Below, piece after piece: positions 32-26,504 of a DNA stretch of 35,477 nt. The DNA comes from Acidimicrobiales bacterium. Its GTDB lineage: Bacteria; Actinomycetota; Acidimicrobiia; Acidimicrobiales; SZUA-35. The DNA lies in NCBI GenBank assembly GCA_024638815.1, contig JAHEJM010000037.1, positions 1 to 35,477 of the forward strand, written 5' to 3'. The notes under the pieces are model-generated. The model saw only the letters and a list, made by a program, of their open reading frames with translations. It was not told the origin of the DNA and ran no database searches. How positions within the stretch are numbered: the stretch's first letter is position 1; every line of letters starts with the position of its first letter. Position numbers and translations under genes: made by a program.

Positions 32-105
32 TGGACCGTACTGGACTTGAACCAGTGACCTCTCGCGTGTGAGGCGAGCGCTCTAGCCAGCTGAGCTAAC
101 GGTCC
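32..105 (-). tRNA. tRNA-Val (anticodon CAC)
   Basis: Read on the minus strand, this folds into a full cloverleaf of 74 nt. The acceptor arms GGACCGT and ACGGTCC pair completely and are followed by discriminator A. The D arm is GCTC/GAGC, the anticodon stem is CTCGC/GCGAG, and the T arm is ACTGG/CCAGT with a TTCAAGT loop. The 7-nt anticodon loop CTCACAC places CAC at positions 34-36, so the tRNA reads GUG valine codons. No CCA is encoded after the discriminator base, so the 3' end must be added by the nucleotidyltransferase. I see nothing in bases 1-31. Confidence 0.96.
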
Positions 106-9517: not shown

Positions 9518-12010
9518 ATGATTGCAGACCAACTGGCAGGAAAACGTATCGCCGTGACCGGGGCGACCGGCTTCCTCGGGACCGCCCTGGTGGAACGCCT
9601 GCTGAGGGGGGTGCCCGAGTGTCGGGTCGTACTGCTGATCCGTGCCGGGCGACGATCGTCGCCGAAGCAACGGGCTCGCCGGGAGATCTTCCGCAATGAC
9701 GCCTTCCGTGGCATGCTCCAGGATCGGGGCAAGGACGCCTTCTGGGACGAAATCGACCGCCGGGTCGACGTCATCGAAGGAGATGTCAGCCTCGACGGCC
9801 TGGCTTTGACGGCCGACGGTCGGCGGATCCTGGCCGATTGTGACGTCGTCATCCATTCTGCGGCCACGGTCAGCTTTGACGCCCCACTGGATGGCGCCGT
9901 CGAGGTCAACCTACTGGGCCCGACCCGAATCGTGGAGACCCTGCACGACATGGGCGTCGCACCCCACTTCGTCGCCGTGTCCACCTGCTACGTCGCCGGC
10001 AACCGTCGGGGCCATGCCCCGGAGCAGCTGCTCAGTGACAGCCCCTTCCACATCGACGTGGACTGGCGGAAGGAGGTCACCGCCGCCCGCCGAACCAGAG
10101 CCGACTTCGACGCCCAATCCCGGGCGGCCGAACACCTGGAGGAATTCCGCAAGCAGGCCCGCCACGAGCTGGGCGCAGCCGGCACTCCCCTGCTGGCGGC
10201 CAAGACCGAGCAGCTTCGCCAGCGTTGGGTCAACGACCAGCTGGTGGAGGCCGGGCGGGCCCGGGCCGCCTCACTGGGTTGGCCCGATGCCTACGCCTAC
10301 ACAAAGGCCCTGGGTGAACGGGCCCTGGACGAGACCAGGGGCGATGTGCCGGTGTCCATCGTTCGCCCATCGATCATCGAGTCGGCGTGGGCCGAACCCC
10401 ATGCCGGCTGGATCAAGGGCTTCCGGATGGCCGAGCCCATCATCATCAGTTACGCCCGGGGTCTGCTCAAGGAGTTCCCCGGGGTTCCCGAGGGTGTCAT
10501 CGACGTGATCCCCGTCGACCTGGTGGTCCACGCCATCATCGCCGTCGCCGCCAGAGGTCCCGGCTACCGGAACGTTTCCGAGGGAACCGACGAAACCCGA
10601 GTTGAAGACGACAAGCCAAACGACCGCGATGTTTCGGCGCCAAGCGCCGAAACTAGAGTTGAAGACGGGAAGCAGAAGGACCGCGATGTTTCGGCGCGTA
10701 GCGCCGAAACTCGACCAATCGCCCGACGGGCGATTGACATCACCCAGGTCGCCTCCGGCACCCGCAACCCGCTGCACTACCGACGTCTGGTCGACCTGGT
10801 GAGCGGCTGGTTCACCGAGAACCCGCTCTATGACCGCAAGGGTCAGCCCATCTCGGTGCCCGAGTGGTCGTTCCCGGGGCGGGGGGCGGTGGAACGGCAG
10901 CTCAACCGAGTCCACCGGAACCTGGAGTGGGCCGACCGCACGTTGAAGTTGCTGCCGCTTCGAGGGCGACAGGCCCTTCTCAACGCCGAGCTCGAGGGGC
11001 GCCGGGACGAGGTGTCCCGGGCCGTCGGTTATGTCAAGATCTACGGCGCCTACGCCGAATGTGAGGCCCTGTACGGGGTGGAGAACCTCCTGGCGCTCCA
11101 CGACTCACTTGATCCCGCCGATCAGGAGACCTTCGGTTGCGATCCGGCCGTCATCGACTGGGATGTCTATGTCCAGCAGGTCCATCTGCCGTCGGTGGTG
11201 GAGCACGCCAGGGTCAAGACCACGGGTGAACGTTCGGATCCCGACGCCCGAACCGCCCGGCTCCGGAAACGGGTGCTCTCCCCGGATCGCCATCTGGCCG
11301 CCTTCGATCTGGAGAACACCATCATCGCCTCCAACGTCGTCTTCAGCTATGCCTGGCTGGCCACCCGGAACCTGGGGGCCGGTGACCGCATGCGCTTCAG
11401 CTTGAAGACCTTGAGCGAAGCCCCCGGTTTGCTGGCCCTGGACCGAAGGGACCGAACCGACTTCCTGCGCCATTTCTATCGCCGCTATGAGGGCGCCTCA
11501 GTAGCCGAGTTGGACGAGCTTGGCTCCGAGTTGCTGGCCGATCACATCCTGACCAAGGCCTTCCCCGCCGCCCTGCGCCGGGTGCGGGAACACCGCCGCC
11601 TCGGTCACCGTACGGTGCTGATCACCGGAGCGCTGAACGTTGTGGTCAACCCGCTCCGACCACTGTTCGACGACGTGATCTGCGCCGAGATGACCCAGCG
11701 CGGCGGCCGCTACACCGGCGAGCTGATCACCGTGCCTCCCACCGGTGAGGTCCGAGCTCAAGCCCTTCGGGACTATGCCGACCTCCATAACGTCGATCTG
11801 GCCGAATCGGTGGCCTACGCTGATTCCTCCTCCGACCTTCCCCTGCTGGACGCCGTCGGCTTTCCGGTTGCAGTGAACCCCGAAACCCGGCTGGCGTCCA
11901 TGGCGAGCAAACGGGGGTGGTTGATCGAGTACTGGTCCAAGGCCGACGGCGGCACCGACAGGCTGCTGCCTCTGGGACCGCTGCCCACCATGCGACGGAG
12001 CCGCAAGTGA
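9518..12010 (+). CDS. fatty acyl-CoA reductase-like / HAD-IB fusion protein
   Basis: This 830-residue protein joins two enzymes. Residues 1-380 are an extended SDR of the NAD-binding-4 type: nucleotide motif GATGFLG (15-21), VSTCYVAG and the catalytic Y259xxxK263 pair. A charged linker of about 50 residues contains a 19-residue tandem repeat. Residues 440-575 resemble the FAR C-terminal domain (VIDWDVYVQQVHLPSVVEHA). Residues 590-815 are a HAD-IB phosphatase-like domain. Its motif I reads D597-L-E599-N-T instead of DxDxT, the usual motif III Lys is R746 (GEVRAQAL), and motif IV is D769SSSD. Acyl-CoA or acyl-thioester reduction is likely; phosphatase activity is doubtful. I start at ATG 9518; the frame upstream to 9359 is tetR shadow. 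It heads the operon. Confidence 0.85.
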   Translation: MIADQLAGKRIAVTGATGFLGTALVERLLRGVPECRVVLLIRAGRRSSPKQRARREIFRNDAFRGMLQDRGKDAFWDEIDRRVDVIEGDVSLDGLALTADGRRILADCDVVIHSAATVSFDAPLDGAVEVNLLGPTRIVETLHDMGVAPHFVAVSTCYVAGNRRGHAPEQLLSDSPFHIDVDWRKEVTAARRTRADFDAQSRAAEHLEEFRKQARHELGAAGTPLLAAKTEQLRQRWVNDQLVEAGRARAASLGWPDAYAYTKALGERALDETRGDVPVSIVRPSIIESAWAEPHAGWIKGFRMAEPIIISYARGLLKEFPGVPEGVIDVIPVDLVVHAIIAVAARGPGYRNVSEGTDETRVEDDKPNDRDVSAPSAETRVEDGKQKDRDVSARSAETRPIARRAIDITQVASGTRNPLHYRRLVDLVSGWFTENPLYDRKGQPISVPEWSFPGRGAVERQLNRVHRNLEWADRTLKLLPLRGRQALLNAELEGRRDEVSRAVGYVKIYGAYAECEALYGVENLLALHDSLDPADQETFGCDPAVIDWDVYVQQVHLPSVVEHARVKTTGERSDPDARTARLRKRVLSPDRHLAAFDLENTIIASNVVFSYAWLATRNLGAGDRMRFSLKTLSEAPGLLALDRRDRTDFLRHFYRRYEGASVAELDELGSELLADHILTKAFPAALRRVREHRRLGHRTVLITGALNVVVNPLRPLFDDVICAEMTQRGGRYTGELITVPPTGEVRAQALRDYADLHNVDLAESVAYADSSSDLPLLDAVGFPVAVNPETRLASMASKRGWLIEYWSKADGGTDRLLPLGPLPTMRRSRK
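10592..10736 (+). repeat. in-frame 57-bp tandem repeat with perfect triloop palindromes
   Basis: Two 57-bp units begin at 10592 and 10649, with the start of a third at 10706; each encodes 19 residues beginning ETRVED. The palindromes have 10-bp arms GTTTCGGCGC and GCGCCGAAAC around a 3-nt loop (10631-10653 and 10688-10710). A further palindrome with arms CAATCGCCC/GGGCGATTG around GAC lies at 10716-10736. All are inside the reductase linker and keep the reading frame. Confidence 0.85.
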
Positions 12011-18567: not shown

Positions 18568-20883
18568 ATGGCAGCCAGCGACACGCCCAAGTCCACCGTC
18601 GGACCCGAAACCCCGATCGAGCTGATTCGGTCGGTGTACGCCACACTGGATGAACGGGTCGGCGCCTTCCGCACTCGCGTCGGCCATCCCCTGACACTGG
18701 CGGAGAAAATCCTGGCCAACCATCTCGACAGGGCCGACGCCGACGTGGAACGGGGTGTCAGCTATGTCGACTTCCGCCCCGATCGGGTGGCCATGCAGGA
18801 CGCCACGGCCCAAATGGCGTGGCTTCAGTTCATGACGGCCAAGCTTCCTCGGGTCCAGGTTCCGACCACCACCCACTGTGATCACCTGATCCAGGCCAGG
18901 GTCGACGGCAAACGTGACCTGCTGGCCGCTCTGGACGCCAACGACGAGGTCTATGACTTCCTGGAGTCGGTTTGCGCCAAATACGGAGCAGGATTCTGGA
19001 AACCGGGTAGCGGCATCATCCACCAGGTCGTGCTGGAGAACTACGCCTTTCCCGGCGGCATGATGATCGGCACCGACAGCCACACCCCCAACGCCGGTGG
19101 CCTGGGAATGGTGGCCATCGGTGTCGGCGGCGCCGACGCCGTCGATGTCATGACCGGTTTCCCGTGGAACGTCCGCTGGCCCAAACTGATCGGCGTGCAT
19201 CTCACCGGCGAGTTGGCGGGTTGGACCGCCCCCAAGGACGTCATTCTGAAGGTGGCCGAGATCTTGACGGTGAAGGGCGGTACCGGTGCCATCGTCGAGT
19301 ACTTCGGACCGGGGGCCAACTCCCTGTCGGCCACCGGCAAGGCCACCATCTGCAACATGGGGGCCGAGATCGGGGCAACGACCAGCCTCTTCGGCTACGA
19401 CGAGGCCATGGCCCGGTACCTCAAGGCTACCGGGCGGGAGGCCACGGCCGACGCCGCCGGCGCCGTCGCCCATCATCTGCGAGCCGACGACGAGGTGCTG
19501 GCCGATCCCGAGCAATACTTCGACCAGGTCATCCACATCGACCTTTCCGAGCTCCGGCCCCATATCAATGGACCTCACACCCCGGACCTGGCCCGCGAGG
19601 TCTCGGCTCTGGGCGACGAGGCCCGGGAGGCGGAATGGCCCATCGAGATCAGCGCCGCCCTCATCGGCAGCTGCACCAACTCGTCCTACGAGGACATCAC
19701 CAGGGCGGCCTCCATCGCCCGCCAGGCTGCGGCGTCGGGCCTGAAGGTCAAGACCAAGCTGATGATCACCCCGGGATCGGAACAGGTCCGGGCCACCATC
19801 GAGCGCGACGGGCTGCTGGCCGACTTCGAGGCCCTGGGTGCCGTCGTCCTGGCCAACGCCTGCGGACCCTGCATCGGCCAGTGGGACCGCTCCGATGAAC
19901 GGGAACCCGGCATCCCCAACGTCATCGTCACCTCCTACAACCGCAATTTCCCCAAGCGCAATGACGGTGACGCCGCCACCCTTGCCTTCGTCACCTCGCC
20001 GGAAACGGTCATGGCCCTGGCCCTGGCCGGGACCCTCGACTTCGATCCTCTCACCGAGCCCCTGGTCAACGAGAATGGTGAGGAGGTCATGCTCGACGTT
20101 CCTCAGGGTGTCGAGCTGCCGGCCAGGGGTTTCGACGAAGGCGACAGCGGTTTCATCGCTCCCCCCGCCGACGGATCCGGCATCGAGGTCAAGGTGTCGC
20201 CCGACTCCGATCGGCTCCAACTGCTGGATGCATTCCCTGCCTGGGACGGCAAGGACTTCGAGAATCTCCCCATCCTGGTCAAGGCCCAGGGCAAGTTCAC
20301 CACCGACCACATCTCGATGGCCGGTCCATGGCTGAAGTATCGGGGCCATTTGGAGAACATCTCCGGCAACCTCTACCTCGGTGCGGTGAGCGCCTTCAAC
20401 GACGGCATCGTGGGCCAGGGTAAGAACCAGCTCACGGGCGAGATGATGAGCTTTCCCGACATCGCCGAGGCCTACCACAAGGCCGAACAACGCTGGGTGG
20501 CCATCGGTGACGAGAACATGGGTGAGGGCTCGTCCCGGGAGCATGCGGCCATGGAACCCCGGTTCCGGGGCGGCGTGCTCGTCCTGGCCCGCTCCTTCGC
20601 CCGGATCCATGAAACAAACCTGAAGAAGCAGGGCATCGTGCCGCTGACCTTCGCCGATCCCGCCGACTACGACAAGATCGGCGAGAACGACCGAATCGGA
20701 ACCCGAGGTCTGGCCGAGCTGGCCCCGAATGAGCCGGTGACCGTCACCGTGACCAGACCCGACGGCGAGACCTGGACCTTCGAAGGCAACCACACCTTCA
20801 GCCCCGAGCAGATCGCATGGTTCAAGGCCGGTTCAGCCCTGGCCGTCATCCGCCGGCAGGTGGAGCGGGGCGAGATCGACTGA
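18568..20883 (+). CDS. acn: aconitate hydratase, mitochondrial-like type
   Basis: Aconitase isomerises citrate to isocitrate through cis-aconitate in the TCA cycle, using a [4Fe-4S] cluster. Cluster ligands are C369 in GSCTNSS and C432/C435 in [10 protein letters not shown]. Substrate-binding motifs include [34 protein letters not shown] and the swivel-domain [15 protein letters not shown]. At 771 residues, and with [23 protein letters not shown], it is closer to the mitochondrial-type aconitases than to the roughly 900-residue AcnA/IRP1 type common in Actinobacteria. ATG 18568 has GAGG 5 nt upstream. The divergent GntR regulator is the likely controller. A strong hairpin at 20937-20962 follows the gene. 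Confidence 0.95.
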
Positions 20884-20936
20884 GCAGCCGACTGCTCTCG
20901 CCCCGCTTTCGCAACAACTTCTGACGAATCGGCACA

Positions 20937-20962
20937 TCGCCGGGGTCACCGAACCCCGGCGA
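20937..20962. terminator. bidirectional terminator between acn and the HAD-PlsC gene
   Basis: Perfect 10-bp arms TCGCCGGGGT and ACCCCGGCGA enclose a 6-nt loop between the converging genes. There is no U-run on either side, which is usual in high-GC actinobacteria. A second small hairpin (GAGCAG/CTGCTC, 20882-20897) overlaps the acn stop codon. Confidence 0.7.
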
Positions 20963-20972
20963 CGGCCGCCCG

Positions 20973-22367
20973 TCACTCGGAGGCGGGCGCCTTGCCCGGC
21001 GGGTAGGTCAGGGCGACTTCGGCGTCGGTCGGCTCCCGCCGGACCTTGGCCTCATCGGGAAGCAGGTCGACGATTCGCTCCATGATCTCGGCCGTCGCCT
21101 CCTCCGGATCCTTGGATGCGGGGTGATAAGGTTCGCCCACCGTCACGCTGATGGTGGGCGGATTGGCCAGGTTGAGCACATAGGGCACCCGGCTGGAGCG
21201 GGGCCAGGCCTTCTCGGAGCCCCAGATCCCCACCGGAACCACCGGAGCTCCGGTCCGACGCGCCAACCGGGCCGCACCATAGCGCCCCTTGAGTACGGGA
21301 TCGAAGAACTCGGGGCCACGGGGAATGGTGCCCTGGGGGAAGAGGGCCACCAGCTCGCCCGCGTCCAGCAGGCGAGCGGCTTCGTTCATGGGCTGGTCGC
21401 TGCCGCTTCCCCGGTCGACGCGCACGGCGCCCAGGGCTTTCACGATGGAGCCGACGACGGGGGCGTCGGTGACCTCCTTCTTGGAAAGGAACCGTGTGGG
21501 CCGGTTGCGGCGACTGGCGGCATGGGCCACCACCAGCGGATCGAGGTAGCTGCGGTGATTGGGGGTCATGATAACCGCCCCCTCGGCCGGGAGGTTCTCG
21601 ATCTGCCGGATCTGGAAGTCGAGCCAGGGCCAGAGCTGGGGCCGGGCGATCTTGTTGACCACCTCCTGGAGTTCGATGCCGACCGGTTTGGGCACCCCCT
21701 CCGGGGCATTGAACCAGACCCGGGACCAGCCTCGGAGCACGGCGTAGGCGAAAAGCCGGGGGTCGGGATTGACCGCCACCGGATTTCCGACCTTGGACAG
21801 CATGGGAATGTCGAAGAAGCTGTCGGAGTAGGCATAGCTCTCGGCCAGATCGACCAGGTTGGCCCGAGCCCACGATTCGATCAGCCGGGCCTTGCCCGTC
21901 GACCAGACGAACTCACCGTCGATGGTGCCGTCGTAGCAGTTGTCGGGGCCGACCCGATAGCGGGTGGCCAGCACATCGTCGAAGCCCATGAGATCGGCGA
22001 ACGGCTTGACCACATCAAAAGGCGTCGTTGTGGCCAGAACGATCTTGCGACCTTCGGCCTTGTGGTCCTCGAGCGTGGCTCTGGCGAACGGTTCGACCTG
22101 GGCGGCCAGGGCGGGGGCAAGATCGATGCCTGCCGCCCTGGTGGCCTTGACCGACCACCCCTTGGCCGCTCGCGCCCCTTGGCGGGTCAACAGCATCGAG
22201 GGCAGGGTCTCACCGAACAGATTGAACACGGCGAACGCCAGGCCCTCGCCGGGCAGCGACTCCTGACGCAACAAGCCGTGATGTCGCAGGGCCTTGGAGA
22301 TGGTGGGACCGCTGGCCCCCAGCAGCAAGGTGCGGTCGAGATCGAAGAACGCAGCAGAGTTGGCCAT
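20973..22367 (-). CDS. HAD-IB phosphatase-like / PlsC acyltransferase fusion
   Basis: Residues 4-225 are a HAD-IB domain with canonical motifs: D9-L-D11-R-T13, a TTP segment after KIVLATT, a GKARLIES lysine and SDSFFD. Residues 245-445 are a PlsC-type acyltransferase with NHRSYLD (HX4D), then FPQGTIPRGPEFF and VVPVGIWGSEKAWP. The normally conserved Glu of the FPEGT motif is Gln (Q345). This SerB-like/PlsC layout is known from mycobacterial PlsC (Rv2483c). It probably acylates a lysophospholipid-like acceptor, with the HAD domain possibly removing a phosphate. The start ATG 22367 has TAGACT 9 nt upstream. A 6C-type RNA is encoded upstream on the same strand. It is convergent with acn. Confidence 0.88.
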   Translation of the reverse strand: MANSAAFFDLDRTLLLGASGPTISKALRHHGLLRQESLPGEGLAFAVFNLFGETLPSMLLTRQGARAAKGWSVKATRAAGIDLAPALAAQVEPFARATLEDHKAEGRKIVLATTTPFDVVKPFADLMGFDDVLATRYRVGPDNCYDGTIDGEFVWSTGKARLIESWARANLVDLAESYAYSDSFFDIPMLSKVGNPVAVNPDPRLFAYAVLRGWSRVWFNAPEGVPKPVGIELQEVVNKIARPQLWPWLDFQIRQIENLPAEGAVIMTPNHRSYLDPLVVAHAASRRNRPTRFLSKKEVTDAPVVGSIVKALGAVRVDRGSGSDQPMNEAARLLDAGELVALFPQGTIPRGPEFFDPVLKGRYGAARLARRTGAPVVPVGIWGSEKAWPRSSRVPYVLNLANPPTISVTVGEPYHPASKDPEEATAEIMERIVDLLPDEAKVRREPTDAEVALTYPPGKAPASE

Positions 22368-22455
22368 ACAAGGGCCAGTCTAATGAAGGAGCCGAAGCCG
22401 GGGCACATGAAGTGATGAGGGACCGGCACCGATGGTCAGCCGACCCCTTCACGCA

Positions 22456-22568
22456 ACAGAGCCGGCCGCTGAATGCGACCGGCTCTGTCGTAAAGAATGC
22501 TCGGGCTGAAGGGGGGACATAGCCCGAGCTCGATGCAGTTGCTGGAGGGGGAACCAGACTGATCGATT
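22456..22568 (-). ncRNA. candidate 6C small RNA (C-rich-loop RNA of Actinobacteria)
   Basis: Read on the minus strand there are three stems. Stem 1 (22536-22561) pairs CAGTCTGG with CCAG-CA-ACTG around the loop TTCCCCCT, which has five C. Stem 2 (22499-22529) has 9-bp arms GCTCGGGCT/AGCCCGAGC around a 13-nt loop containing six C (22511-22516). Stem 3 (22456-22488), with 10-bp arms ACAGAGCCGG/CCGGCTCTGT, is a likely terminator, though without a strong U-tail. Two hairpins with C-runs in the loops define the 6C RNA class, known as B11 in mycobacteria. From memory, B11 lies next to a HAD-family gene (Rv3661), as here. A promoter sits immediately upstream at 22575-22604. The class assignment is inferred from structure and context. 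Confidence 0.72.
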
Positions 22569-22574
22569 ACCCGA

Positions 22575-22604
22575 AGTCTATGACCGGTCCGGTGCATCTG
22601 CCAA
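22575..22604 (-). promoter_or_regulatory. sigma70-type promoter of the 6C RNA candidate
   Basis: On the minus strand TTGGCA (22599-22604) and TAGACT (22575-22580) are separated by 18 bp. This predicts transcription starting at about 22567-22568, just before stem 1 of the RNA. It is one of the best-formed promoters in the window. Confidence 0.65.
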
Positions 22605-22617
22605 CTGGTTTCGGCAG

Positions 22618-22631
22618 ATAATGCGCATCAT
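22618..22631. promoter_or_regulatory. candidate LysR-type binding site
   Basis: A 14-bp dyad, ATAATGCGCATCAT, with one mismatched pair and a perfect ATGCGCAT core, lies about 55 bp upstream of the lysR start and 14 bp upstream of the 6C RNA -35 element. Its position suits autoregulation by the LysR protein. Confidence 0.4.
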
Positions 22632-22684
22632 TCAAATAGATCACTTCATCCATCACCATTGCAGTTGTGCCATCATCTCTGGCG

Positions 22685-23608
22685 ATGGATCTACGACAAC
22701 TGCAAGCCTTCCTGGCCGTTGTGGAACACGGCGGATTCACCGCCGCCGCCCGGGCCACCCACACCGTACAGTCCAACATCTCCACCCACGTCGCCCGTCT
22801 GGAGAGGGAGCTGGAGGCGACGCTGATCGATCGAGCCACCGGCAAACCGACCGAGGAAGGTGAAGCCGTTCTTACCCGGGTCCGACGGATCCAGACCGAG
22901 CTGGCCTCGCTCCAGGCCGACGTGTCGTCATTGCGGGGATCACCTCGGGGCACGGTGCGCATCGGGGTCATCGGTACCACGGCCCGATGGCTCACCCCGA
23001 TCCTGGTCGAAACGCTGGCGGCCCAGTCCCCCGACATCCACCTCGTGGTGGCCGATGGCACCACTCGGGCCATCGAGCTGCGACTGCTCGGCGGCGAACT
23101 CGATCTCGGCGTCGTGGGACTGCCGGTCGATGATCCCGAAATCCGCACCACCGCGCTGTTCGACGAGGACCACGTGGTCGTCGGCCCCAACGACCATCCA
23201 CTGGCCAAGCTCGAAGGGCCCATCGATCTGACCGAACTGGCCAAGTACCCGCTGCTGCTGGCCGCACCGGGCACACCGTTTCGCCAGGAAGTCGACGAGA
23301 CGTTTCGAGCCCGAGGTCTACGCCCTCAGGCCAAGGTGGAGGTGGATGGTCTCCGCCTTCTGGCCTCACTGGCCTTTCAGGGCTTCGGTGTTGCCATCGT
23401 GCCCGCCACCGCAGCACCGGGCTGGGTCGGTGGGCCCTGGACTCGGCTGGCAGTCGACGGTTTGTCGCGACGAACTGTGGGCCTGGCCGCCCGACGTCGG
23501 GGAATGCCCACCGTGGCGGCCCAGGCCACGGTGTCGGTGCTTCGGGGAATCATCGCCAGTCACGCCGCCGAAGTACCCGGTCTTCACCCGGTGGGAAGCG
23601 GCGACTGA
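22685..23608 (+). CDS. LysR-family transcriptional regulator
   Basis: The 307-residue protein starts with the classic LysR DNA-binding domain (MDLRQLQAFLAVVEHGGFTAAAR...TVQSNISTHVARLERELEATL). A periplasmic-binding-protein-like effector domain follows from about residue 90 (GTVRIGVIGTTARWLTPILVE, then ELDLGVVGLPVDDPEI). I start at ATG 22685, the family start; an in-frame ATG at 22667 only adds six residues. It lies 43 nt upstream of the carboxyltransferase on the same strand and could be in its operon. The effector is unknown. It is divergent from the HAD-PlsC gene and the 6C RNA, so it could also act there. Confidence 0.9.
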   Translation: MDLRQLQAFLAVVEHGGFTAAARATHTVQSNISTHVARLERELEATLIDRATGKPTEEGEAVLTRVRRIQTELASLQADVSSLRGSPRGTVRIGVIGTTARWLTPILVETLAAQSPDIHLVVADGTTRAIELRLLGGELDLGVVGLPVDDPEIRTTALFDEDHVVVGPNDHPLAKLEGPIDLTELAKYPLLLAAPGTPFRQEVDETFRARGLRPQAKVEVDGLRLLASLAFQGFGVAIVPATAAPGWVGGPWTRLAVDGLSRRTVGLAARRRGMPTVAAQATVSVLRGIIASHAAEVPGLHPVGSGD

Positions 23609-23651
23609 ACCCTTCACCACACGACCCCGACGGCGGTAGCGTGGAGCCTCC

Positions 23652-24998
23652 ATGACTGTGGTCCACTCAGCTGCCCGCACCTCGACGACATCGGCTCGAA
23701 CCGTGGATCTGCACGGTCGCCGCGTGATGATGGTGTCGGTTGTCGGCGCGGAGGACGATCCGGAACCGGTGTTGACGGCCGAGGACGGCCGCACCCTGGT
23801 CGAAGCCATTCAGACAGCCCGACGCCAGGGCCTTCCCTTCATCATGATTCTTCGCACCACCGGTGTGTCGGTCAACGACGGTCTCGGGGCAGCATCGGCC
23901 TGGGCTCGGGCCGCTCGTGAGCTGGTCCGATCCAGCGGCATCATCCCAACCATGGCGGTGGCCGCCGGGCCCGTGGTCTCCGGCCCCGCCCTGCTGCTGG
24001 GACTGGTTGATCTGGTGGCCCTGACCACCAATGCCTACAGCTATCTGAATGGACCGAAAAGCGTCGAAACCTACACCGGTGTCCCCGTCTCGGCTCAGGA
24101 ACTGGGGGGAGCGGGTGCCCATCTACGATCGAGTGGAGTGGCTTCGCTGCTGGCCGACTCGCTCGACGAGGCACTGGACGCCCTGGCTCACGTGCTCGAG
24201 TTCCTTCCCGACAGCGTCGACCACCTACCCCCCATCAAGGAGACCGCCGATCCGGCCGACCGCCCCACCCCGGAGGCGGCTTCGCTGCTCCCGGAGGCCG
24301 CACTGGGCTCCTACGACATACGCAAGGTCATTGGCACCGTGTGCGATGACGGTGAGTTCGTCGAGCTTCGGGCCTCGTGGGCCCCCAACCTGGTCACCGG
24401 TCTGGCTCGTTTCGGCGGTCTCCCCGTCGGGGTGGTGGCCAACCAAACCCAGGCCCTGGCCGGCAGCATCGACATCCCTGCGTCCCAGAAGGGTGCCCGG
24501 TTCGTGGCCATGTGCGATGCCTTCAACCTGCCGTTGGTGACCTTGGTCGACACCTCGGGTTTCCTACCGGGAAAGGACCTCGAGTGGCGGGGCATGATCC
24601 GCCACGGGGCCCAACTCGCCTTTGCCTACGCCCGGGCCACGGTACCCCGGGTCGGCCTCATTCTCCGCAAGTCCTACGGCGGGGCCTACATCGTGATGGA
24701 CTCGGTCAACATGGGCAATGACCTCATGTTGGCCTGGCCCAGTGCCGAGGTGGCGGTGATGGGGGCCAAAGGAGCGGTCGAGATCCTTCACCGAAAGGCC
24801 ACCCCGGACGAGCGGGCCGAACTCGAAGCGCGGTATGAGGCCACCTACCTGACGCCCTATCCGGCGACGGAACGGGCCTCTATCAATGCCGTCATCGATC
24901 CGGCCGACACCCGGCGGGAACTGGTGGCCGCTCTCGCCATGCTCTGGTCGAAACGGGAAAGGCTGAGAACGCGCCGGCACGACAACACTCCTCTCTGA
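23652..24998 (+). CDS. short acyl-CoA carboxylase carboxyltransferase-like protein
   Basis: The 448-residue protein is a carboxyltransferase of the crotonase-like AccD/PccB family, which transfers carboxybiotin CO2 to an acyl-CoA. The N-lobe begins only at about residue 18, so some 60-70 residues of the usual N-terminus are missing. The usual GGARIQEG loop is replaced by TTGVSVNDG (69-77), and GPCAGG by GPVVSG. The C-lobe is more canonical: FGGLPVGVVANQTQALAGSID, then LVDTSGFLPGKDLEWRGMIRHGAQL and LRKSYGGAYIVMDS. ATG 23652 has GGAG 6 nt upstream. No biotin carboxylase or BCCP gene is in the window, so activity and partner are uncertain. It may be a regulatory or neofunctionalised paralogue. 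Confidence 0.8.
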   Translation: MTVVHSAARTSTTSARTVDLHGRRVMMVSVVGAEDDPEPVLTAEDGRTLVEAIQTARRQGLPFIMILRTTGVSVNDGLGAASAWARAARELVRSSGIIPTMAVAAGPVVSGPALLLGLVDLVALTTNAYSYLNGPKSVETYTGVPVSAQELGGAGAHLRSSGVASLLADSLDEALDALAHVLEFLPDSVDHLPPIKETADPADRPTPEAASLLPEAALGSYDIRKVIGTVCDDGEFVELRASWAPNLVTGLARFGGLPVGVVANQTQALAGSIDIPASQKGARFVAMCDAFNLPLVTLVDTSGFLPGKDLEWRGMIRHGAQLAFAYARATVPRVGLILRKSYGGAYIVMDSVNMGNDLMLAWPSAEVAVMGAKGAVEILHRKATPDERAELEARYEATYLTPYPATERASINAVIDPADTRRELVAALAMLWSKRERLRTRRHDNTPL

Positions 24999-25235
24999 CC
25001 GCCGGGCACGATCCGCGGTGAACCGACCCTCAAGCCGGGCGGCCACTCGGCCGAAAACCAATCTTGGTGCCCAACTATGGTGGCAGGGGCGGTGAGCGCT
25101 AGATTCGAGCCTGCAGAGATCCATACCGTTTGTCGCTCTGTGTGCGGGCGAGCGGGTCGGGGACCACTGGTAGTGGCGACACAAGGGGGTGTGCGCCCAA
25201 AAAGGCTTCAACGCAAGCGACGAGAGAGGACTGCT
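24999..25235 (+). promoter_or_regulatory. gltA upstream region
   Basis: This 237-bp gap holds no ORF with coding character; the frame open from 25077 is Arg/Val-rich noise before the gltA GTG. It should contain the gltA promoter, but I could not pick -35/-10 boxes with confidence. AGAGGA (about 25225-25230) ends 5 nt before the gltA start and is a good ribosome site. Confidence 0.4.
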
Positions 25236-26504
25236 GTGCCTGATTCGGTAACCATCACGGACAATCGCACCGGGAAGTCGTTCGACCTTCCCATCGTGAA
25301 CGGTGGTGTCGACGCCAACGAGTGGCGCACCAACCTTCCCGGGGTTTGGTTTCTCGATCCGGGGTTCGGGGCAACGGCATCGACCGAGAGCTCCATCACC
25401 GACCTTGACGGGGCCAACGGTATTCTCCGCTATCGGGGCTACCCCATCGAGCAGCTGGCCGAGCAGTCGACGTTCCTCGAGGTCGCCTACCTTCTGCTGA
25501 AGGGCGACCTACCGACACAGAAAGAATTCGACCAGTGGGTGTATGACGTCACCCACCACACGTACATTCACGAGAACATGCGCAAGCGGTTCTACGAAGG
25601 TTTCCATTACGACGCCCATCCCATGGGCATGCTGGTGTCGGCAATCGCCGCCCTCTCCACCTTCTATCCCGAGGCCAAGGACATCGAGGATCGGGACAAC
25701 CGGTTCATACAGATCAACCGGCTCATCTCGAAGGGGCCGACGCTGGCCTCCATGGCCTACCGAGCCTCCATCGGCATGCCCTTCGTCTACCCCGACAACT
25801 CACTCAACTACACCGAGAACTTCCTGTCGATGATGTGGCGGGTGGCCGAGCCCCACTACGATCCCGACCCGGTGTTGTCCCGGGCCCTCGACGTGCTGCT
25901 CATCCTCCACGCCGACCACGAACAAAACTGTTCGACCACGGCCATGCGGGTGGTGGGTTCGTCTCATGCCGATCCGTTCACCACCACCGCCGCCGCCACC
26001 GCCGCCCTCTACGGTCCCCGCCACGGCGGAGCCAACGAGGCGGTGATCCACATGTTGCGACGGATCGGTTCCTATGAGAACATCCCCGGCTTCATCGAGT
26101 CGGTCAAGAACGGCGAAGGCCGGCTCATGGGCTTCGGCCACCGGGTGTACAAGGCCTACGACCCCCGGGCCCGCATTGTCAAGAACCACGCCGACGACGT
26201 GTTCAAGGTCACGGGCCGGAATCCGCTCATCGACATCGCCCTCAAGCTGGAGGAGATTGCACTCGAGGACGACTACTTCAAGAGCCGCAACCTCTACCCC
26301 AATGTCGACTTCTACACCGGTCTCATCTACCAGGCCATGAAGTTCCCGATGGACATGTTCACCGTGCTGTTCGCCATCGGCCGCATGCCGGGCTGGCTGG
26401 CCCACTGGAACGAGTCGGTGGAGCAGGAGGCGCGTATATCCCGGCCCCGACAAGTCTACGTCGGGCCCGGCGAGCGCCAGTACATACCCCTCGATCAGCG
26501 GTAG
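25236..26504 (+). CDS. gltA: citrate synthase
   Basis: Citrate synthase condenses acetyl-CoA and oxaloacetate, the entry step of the TCA cycle. The 422-residue protein is a type II (hexameric-like) enzyme with the usual N-terminal domain (GFGATASTESSITDLDGANGILRYRGYPI). The catalytic histidines are in HADHEQNCSTTAMR and GFGHRVYKAYDPRARI, where the catalytic Asp also lies, and GPRHGGANEAV is conserved. C-terminal MPGWLAHWNESVEQ and RPRQVYVG are typical. The frame is open from 25077, but homology and the AGAGGA ribosome site support GTG 25236 (VPDSVTITDNRTG). A terminator hairpin follows at 26509-26525. Confidence 0.97.
   Translation: MPDSVTITDNRTGKSFDLPIVNGGVDANEWRTNLPGVWFLDPGFGATASTESSITDLDGANGILRYRGYPIEQLAEQSTFLEVAYLLLKGDLPTQKEFDQWVYDVTHHTYIHENMRKRFYEGFHYDAHPMGMLVSAIAALSTFYPEAKDIEDRDNRFIQINRLISKGPTLASMAYRASIGMPFVYPDNSLNYTENFLSMMWRVAEPHYDPDPVLSRALDVLLILHADHEQNCSTTAMRVVGSSHADPFTTTAAATAALYGPRHGGANEAVIHMLRRIGSYENIPGFIESVKNGEGRLMGFGHRVYKAYDPRARIVKNHADDVFKVTGRNPLIDIALKLEEIALEDDYFKSRNLYPNVDFYTGLIYQAMKFPMDMFTVLFAIGRMPGWLAHWNESVEQEARISRPRQVYVGPGERQYIPLDQR

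Follow-up and report, generated by a model that had tools for sequence, protein, structure and literature searches.

A C-loop small RNA gene beside a divergent LysR-type gene in Acidimicrobiales

In an Acidimicrobiales bacterium, the minus strand next to a HAD-PlsC fusion gene carries a promoter-like sequence followed by stems with C-rich loops. A sequence-only reading of the window (by which we mean the whole 35,477-nt stretch analysed, contig JAHEJM010000037.1) had taken these for a 6C RNA. We therefore asked whether this is a small-RNA gene at all, whether it belongs to the 6C class, and what such an RNA might do here.

The small-RNA gene and its relatives

The locus contains the following features:

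20973..22367, minus strand: HAD-IB and PlsC acyltransferase fusion, 3' of the RNA, a frequent but not constant neighbour (domain searches)
22456..22568, minus strand: C-loop small RNA gene of about 113 nt (fold z of -9.2, covariance model R1, covariation)
22456..22488, minus strand: hairpin 3, a long GC stem of terminator type, without a good U-run in the source genome (fold)
22499..22529, minus strand: hairpin 2, loop around GUCCCCCCUUC, CCCCCC run at 22511-22516 (fold and alignment)
22530..22566, minus strand: hairpin 1, loop UUCCCCCU, CCCCC run at 22547-22551 (fold and alignment)
22575..22604, minus strand: sigma-70-type promoter TTGGCA-18-TAGACT (promoter scan; position kept in congeners)
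22596..22619, minus strand: inverted repeat ATCTGCC-N10-GGCAGAT over the -35 element, putative LysR binding site (order-wide consensus)
22685..23608, plus strand: divergent LysR-type transcriptional regulator, alternative GTG start at 22667 (Pfam HTH_1 and LysR_substrate)

The RNA is predicted to fold with a minimum free energy of -68.3 kcal/mol, against -35.7 +/- 3.6 for dinucleotide shuffles (z = -9.2; none of 200 shuffles was as good). This fold recovers the three stems described in the sequence-only reading, with runs of five and six C in two of the loops. The minus-strand promoter given there also proved right in letters and coordinates: the promoter scan found one site where 0.3 were expected, with the -35 box TTGGCA at 22604-22599, the -10 box TAGACT at 22580-22575 and a spacer of 18 bp, and the predicted RNA start lies near 22568 on the minus strand. 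The third, terminator-like stem stood in part. Its GC stem is present, but in the source genome it is followed by GTTGCGT, a poor U-run, and a terminator scan of the window detected no terminator at this hairpin; relatives carry TCGTTTT or CTTTTCATTTT 3' of the same stem. At the level of sequence, then, this spot is a real small-RNA gene with its own predicted promoter and C-rich loops. The downstream gene on the minus strand was correctly named as HAD-PlsC, as Pfam and NCBIfam domain searches confirmed. Elsewhere in the window lie a tRNA gene (32-105, minus strand; Rfam tRNA, 69 bits) and a second HAD-IB-like domain (11288-11926, plus strand) within an open frame of 890 aa.

By BLAST within the family, the RNA was found at the same place in six congeners, each time with a divergent LysR gene (82-89% identity) beside it; the stems differ between these genomes while the loops UUCCCCCUCC and CCCCCCUUC barely change. 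Two further loci, L008 and L009, were rejected as chance BLAST matches. A covariance model (R1), built from five sequences and hence giving only rough E-values, was run over 198 Acidimicrobiales genomes. Seven weaker matches in other genera and families (genomes G003, G131, G113, G181, G149, G128 and G206) directly adjoin the LysR orthologue and are divergent to it, the position of the orthologue having been searched independently of the R1 matches. R1 hits proposed as extra copies (G000:C4, G029:C32 and G003:C7) turned out not to be C-loop RNAs and were discarded, and no plasmid copies of the RNA were found.

Covariation of the stems in relatives, which the sequence-only reading had named as a check, is present. 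In an alignment of 14 sequences (A6), 96.2% of the cells are paired and 21 of the 29 pairs show two-sided changes. There are 65 cells with such changes, compared with 16.3 after shuffling and 2-8 after a shift of the partners by one to three columns; as the alignment was fitted to the R1 structure and so favours pairing, the shifted controls matter most. This pattern indicates that the secondary structure is under selection.

The C-runs themselves are concentrated where the RNA is expected. In loci L096-L138, 54 of 92 runs of at least five C upstream of LysR fall in hairpin loops; over the rest of these loci the count is 34 of 464. A broader set of 48 loci, partly overlapping the first, gives 84 of 137 and 69 of 366. 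Of these 48 orthologue loci, 45 have C-loop hairpins divergent to LysR; the divergent strand accounts for 82 hairpins and the other strand for two. In two of the three negative loci a run of five C persists, although the stem is shorter, and L193 alone lacks any. The number and arrangement of the hairpins vary: the window's genus has two C-loop hairpins and a separate plain terminator hairpin, sister genera have repeated GGUCCCCCUCG loops, and the distant lineages L138, L200, L207, L208 and L210 have two hairpins with C6-C8 loops, of which the second doubles as the terminator, as in the 6C plan. Loop types among the relatives are CCCCCUCC, GGUCCCCCUCG and CCCCCCA. Away from the LysR gene, L012:1501-1621 and L013:1501-1624 (family f16) each contain a hairpin with a C-loop and, after it, a terminator stem, convergent to a murA-like gene; these are perhaps a second C-loop RNA family.

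Comparison with 6C RNA

The likeness to 6C/B11 (RF01066; Streptomyces, mycobacteria and corynebacteria) is evident: both are actinobacterial small RNAs, of about 90-120 nt, with 5-8 C in their loops. The roughly six C expected in each of two 6C hairpin loops are matched by C5 and C6 in the window and by C6-C8 in distant members. In 6C the second C-loop hairpin is also the terminator, an arrangement that distant members such as L200, L208 and L210 share and the window's genus, with its C-loops and separate terminator, does not. The Rfam model, which the sequence-only reading had proposed as a check, gave no support to 6C membership: RF01066 (gathering cut-off 47 bits) did not match the window at E<=10, and the source genome gave no match either. 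Nor did it match any of the 43 related loci scanned, two-hairpin members included, at E<=1-10. As a positive control, the same model detected 6C in genomes of the phylum that we judge to be Streptomyces- and Mycobacterium-like.

Genomic position separates the two RNAs as well. Real 6C RNAs adjoin a divergent HAD-IB gene, and B11 lies between Rv3660 and Rv3661 (PMC12395582). The HAD-IB-type neighbour in the window had been read as a sign of 6C. A one-way search seemed to agree, in that, of the HAD-domain matches in four genomes, the 6C-adjacent HAD-IB protein was the one that HAD-PlsC matched best. With the 6C-adjacent protein as the query, however, a 47-49% orthologue was found elsewhere in four of eight Acidimicrobiales genomes, whereas the window's fusion and its relatives match that protein at only 31-41%. 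No C-loop RNA was found beside these orthologues (L139-L142), two of which (L139 and L141) adjoin an ssd-like gene with no C-loop RNA between. The neighbourhood was accordingly rejected as a sign of 6C: since the closer orthologue lies elsewhere, the clue is a coincidence of gene family, not of locus. The RNA of the window does not lie between HAD-IB and ssd-like genes; its locus is that of LysR, acn and gltA, and a LysR-type dyad overlies its promoter.

One might still suppose that this is a true 6C RNA, relocated in the genome and now too divergent for the Rfam model to recognise. The two C-loop hairpins, the exact 6C plan of L138, L200, L208 and L210, the HAD-IB-type gene that neighbours both RNAs, and the weak scores that R1 gives to real 6C RNAs (up to 14 bits) all speak for such a descent. 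Against it stand the silence of RF01066 even on the two-hairpin relatives, the difference in promoter and regulator neighbour, and the genomes G131 and G049, in which the 6C-typical HAD-IB/ssd-like locus is present elsewhere and without a C-loop RNA. We consider this descent unlikely.

Nor did any other Rfam family exceed its cut-off on the RNA in the loci that were scanned. The best sub-threshold match of the window RNA was ar14/NfeR1 (RF02344), at 34.7 bits, with 28.0 bits in L209, below the gathering score of 58.8. Both RNAs have three hairpins, and ar14 has CU-rich anti-Shine-Dalgarno loops; ar14 differs in being alphaproteobacterial and in having CCUCCUCCC loops in all three hairpins. Searches of open-access papers turned up no regulatory RNA described at this place in Acidimicrobiales. 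The C-loop RNA thus appears to form a family separate from 6C and apparently undescribed.

The divergent LysR-type gene

The neighbour that stays constant beside the RNA is the divergent LysR gene, on which the sequence-only reading was silent, rather than HAD-PlsC. LysR lies between aconitase/HAD-PlsC on one side and an acyl-CoA carboxylase subunit/citrate synthase on the other, and the order acn - HAD-PlsC - sRNA - LysR - acyl-CoA carboxylase subunit - citrate synthase (window 18568-26504) is kept in many Acidimicrobiales. From the position beside acn and gltA one might guess at a central-carbon signal for the regulator. Of 198 Acidimicrobiales genomes, 150 carry one copy of the LysR orthologue, and none was found outside the order in the phylum sample. 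For every NCBIfam model listed, the protein scores under the curated cut-off. Its closest relative of solved structure is OxyR; it contains no cysteine and is therefore not an OxyR-type peroxide sensor. In E. coli OxyR-OxyS a LysR-type gene is likewise divergent to a small RNA, there one that it controls, OxyS being a different RNA.

Over the -35 box lies the dyad, whose order-wide consensus is ATATC-N6-AACTGTTGGACAGAT. A first scan for a palindrome-only motif was weak, and the longer consensus gave a clear result: a score of at least 13 of 20 positions was reached by 81% of 91 LysR upstream regions and by 5% of dinucleotide shuffles, the former value being somewhat flattering because the consensus was derived from the loci that were scored. 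In L110, L118 and L134, the dyad, the promoter and the RNA, here with two to three GGUCCCCCUCG loops, are inverted as one unit. That the dyad travels with the RNA in these cassettes argues that the RNA promoter is tied to LysR. At L124/L193 (the same locus) the RNA is missing and the dyad is kept between adjacent LysR and HAD-PlsC genes; there, LysR may control HAD-PlsC directly.

The inversions also bear on the idea that the RNA acts in cis on HAD-PlsC, as an attenuator or riboswitch leader. In most loci the RNA does lie just upstream of that gene and is read in the same direction, and it ends in a terminator-like stem. A leader would have a constant downstream gene on its own strand, and this was not found: the gene next to the RNA is not HAD-PlsC in L101, L112, L117 and L120, and the three inverted cassettes read toward LysR. 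In addition, the loops are constant C-runs, and the folds contain no alternative antiterminator pairing. As the dyad, promoter and RNA are inverted together in three lineages, the RNA is no leader of HAD-PlsC; we rejected this reading on the inversions and the changing neighbours, and give it very little credence.

Proposed action of the RNA

We think it quite likely that the locus encodes a small RNA of about 113 nt that is transcribed independently, acts in trans and is paired divergently, in a conserved arrangement, with the LysR gene, and whose C-loops block G-rich Shine-Dalgarno regions without Hfq; in this account we infer transcription, LysR binding, and the direction and identity of the targets. 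The LysR protein would sense a metabolite or stress signal and bind the dyad over the -35 box, thereby controlling synthesis of the RNA. Activation is the more usual outcome for such a layout of LysR and promoter. In the folded RNA, rigid hairpin loops would present runs of 5-8 C. By pairing with G-rich Shine-Dalgarno regions on mRNAs encoded elsewhere, these loops would keep ribosomes from binding, without the help of Hfq. Target mRNAs would be expected to carry sites resembling GGAGGGGGAA or GAAGGGGGGAC.

Several observations point to this mode of action. No match to the Hfq family was found in 59 Acidimicrobiales genomes, while control genomes were positive, and the C-rich loop of B11 binds G tracts adjoining ribosome-binding sites (PMC12395582). 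Taken together, the C-rich loops held open on strong stems, the missing Hfq and what tests have shown for B11 favour anti-Shine-Dalgarno pairing as the most likely action; by analogy, the RNA probably acts like 6C/B11. In the source genome, GAGGGGGA before ATG is about three times commoner than in the reversed control, an excess that ordinary Shine-Dalgarno use explains. A search for GAGGGGGA-N-ATG in 12 congeners, combined with Pfam searches of some downstream frames, found no shared target, and the genes differ between genomes.

The conserved adjacency of a LysR gene and an RNA with predicted anti-Shine-Dalgarno loops makes LsrB-AbcR1 of the alphaproteobacteria, by analogy, the closest circuit to this pair. 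There, LsrB activates AbcR1 in Sinorhizobium, AbcR1 having the anti-Shine-Dalgarno motifs CUCCUCCC and UUCCCCUC (PMC8844928), and VtlR binds the abcR1 promoter in Agrobacterium (PMC7486931). As in the Acidimicrobiales locus, AbcR1/AbcR2 carry such loops and are encoded beside a LysR gene, the one there (LsrB/VtlR) being their activator (PMC8844928, PMC7486931); the RNAs and phyla are unrelated, and AbcR works with the Hfq that was not found here.

Repeated identical loops on hairpins are also the plan of CsrB/RsmX-type RNAs, yet a protein-titrating sponge of this kind, acting without base-pairing, is the least probable reading of all, as CsrA sites are GGA in the loop while the loops here are C-runs, and the single rsmX match (E = 0.33, sub-threshold, one locus) lay away from the RNA.

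Read as a trans-acting RNA paired with LysR, the locus offers a simple and testable circuit of one regulator, one RNA and one dyad, and an independent parallel to both 6C/B11 and LsrB-AbcR1. Its natural variants, with one to four C-loops, provide a system for asking how anti-Shine-Dalgarno RNAs pick their targets without Hfq. More broadly, the pair may, or may equally not, represent a regulon that spans the order Acidimicrobiales: one LysR, encoded in a citrate synthase/aconitase/acyl-CoA carboxylase cluster, would act through a fast-evolving, chaperone-free C-loop RNA with one to four interchangeable anti-Shine-Dalgarno hairpins. The 6C mechanism would then have arisen a second time, independently, in Actinomycetota, here coupled to central carbon metabolism.
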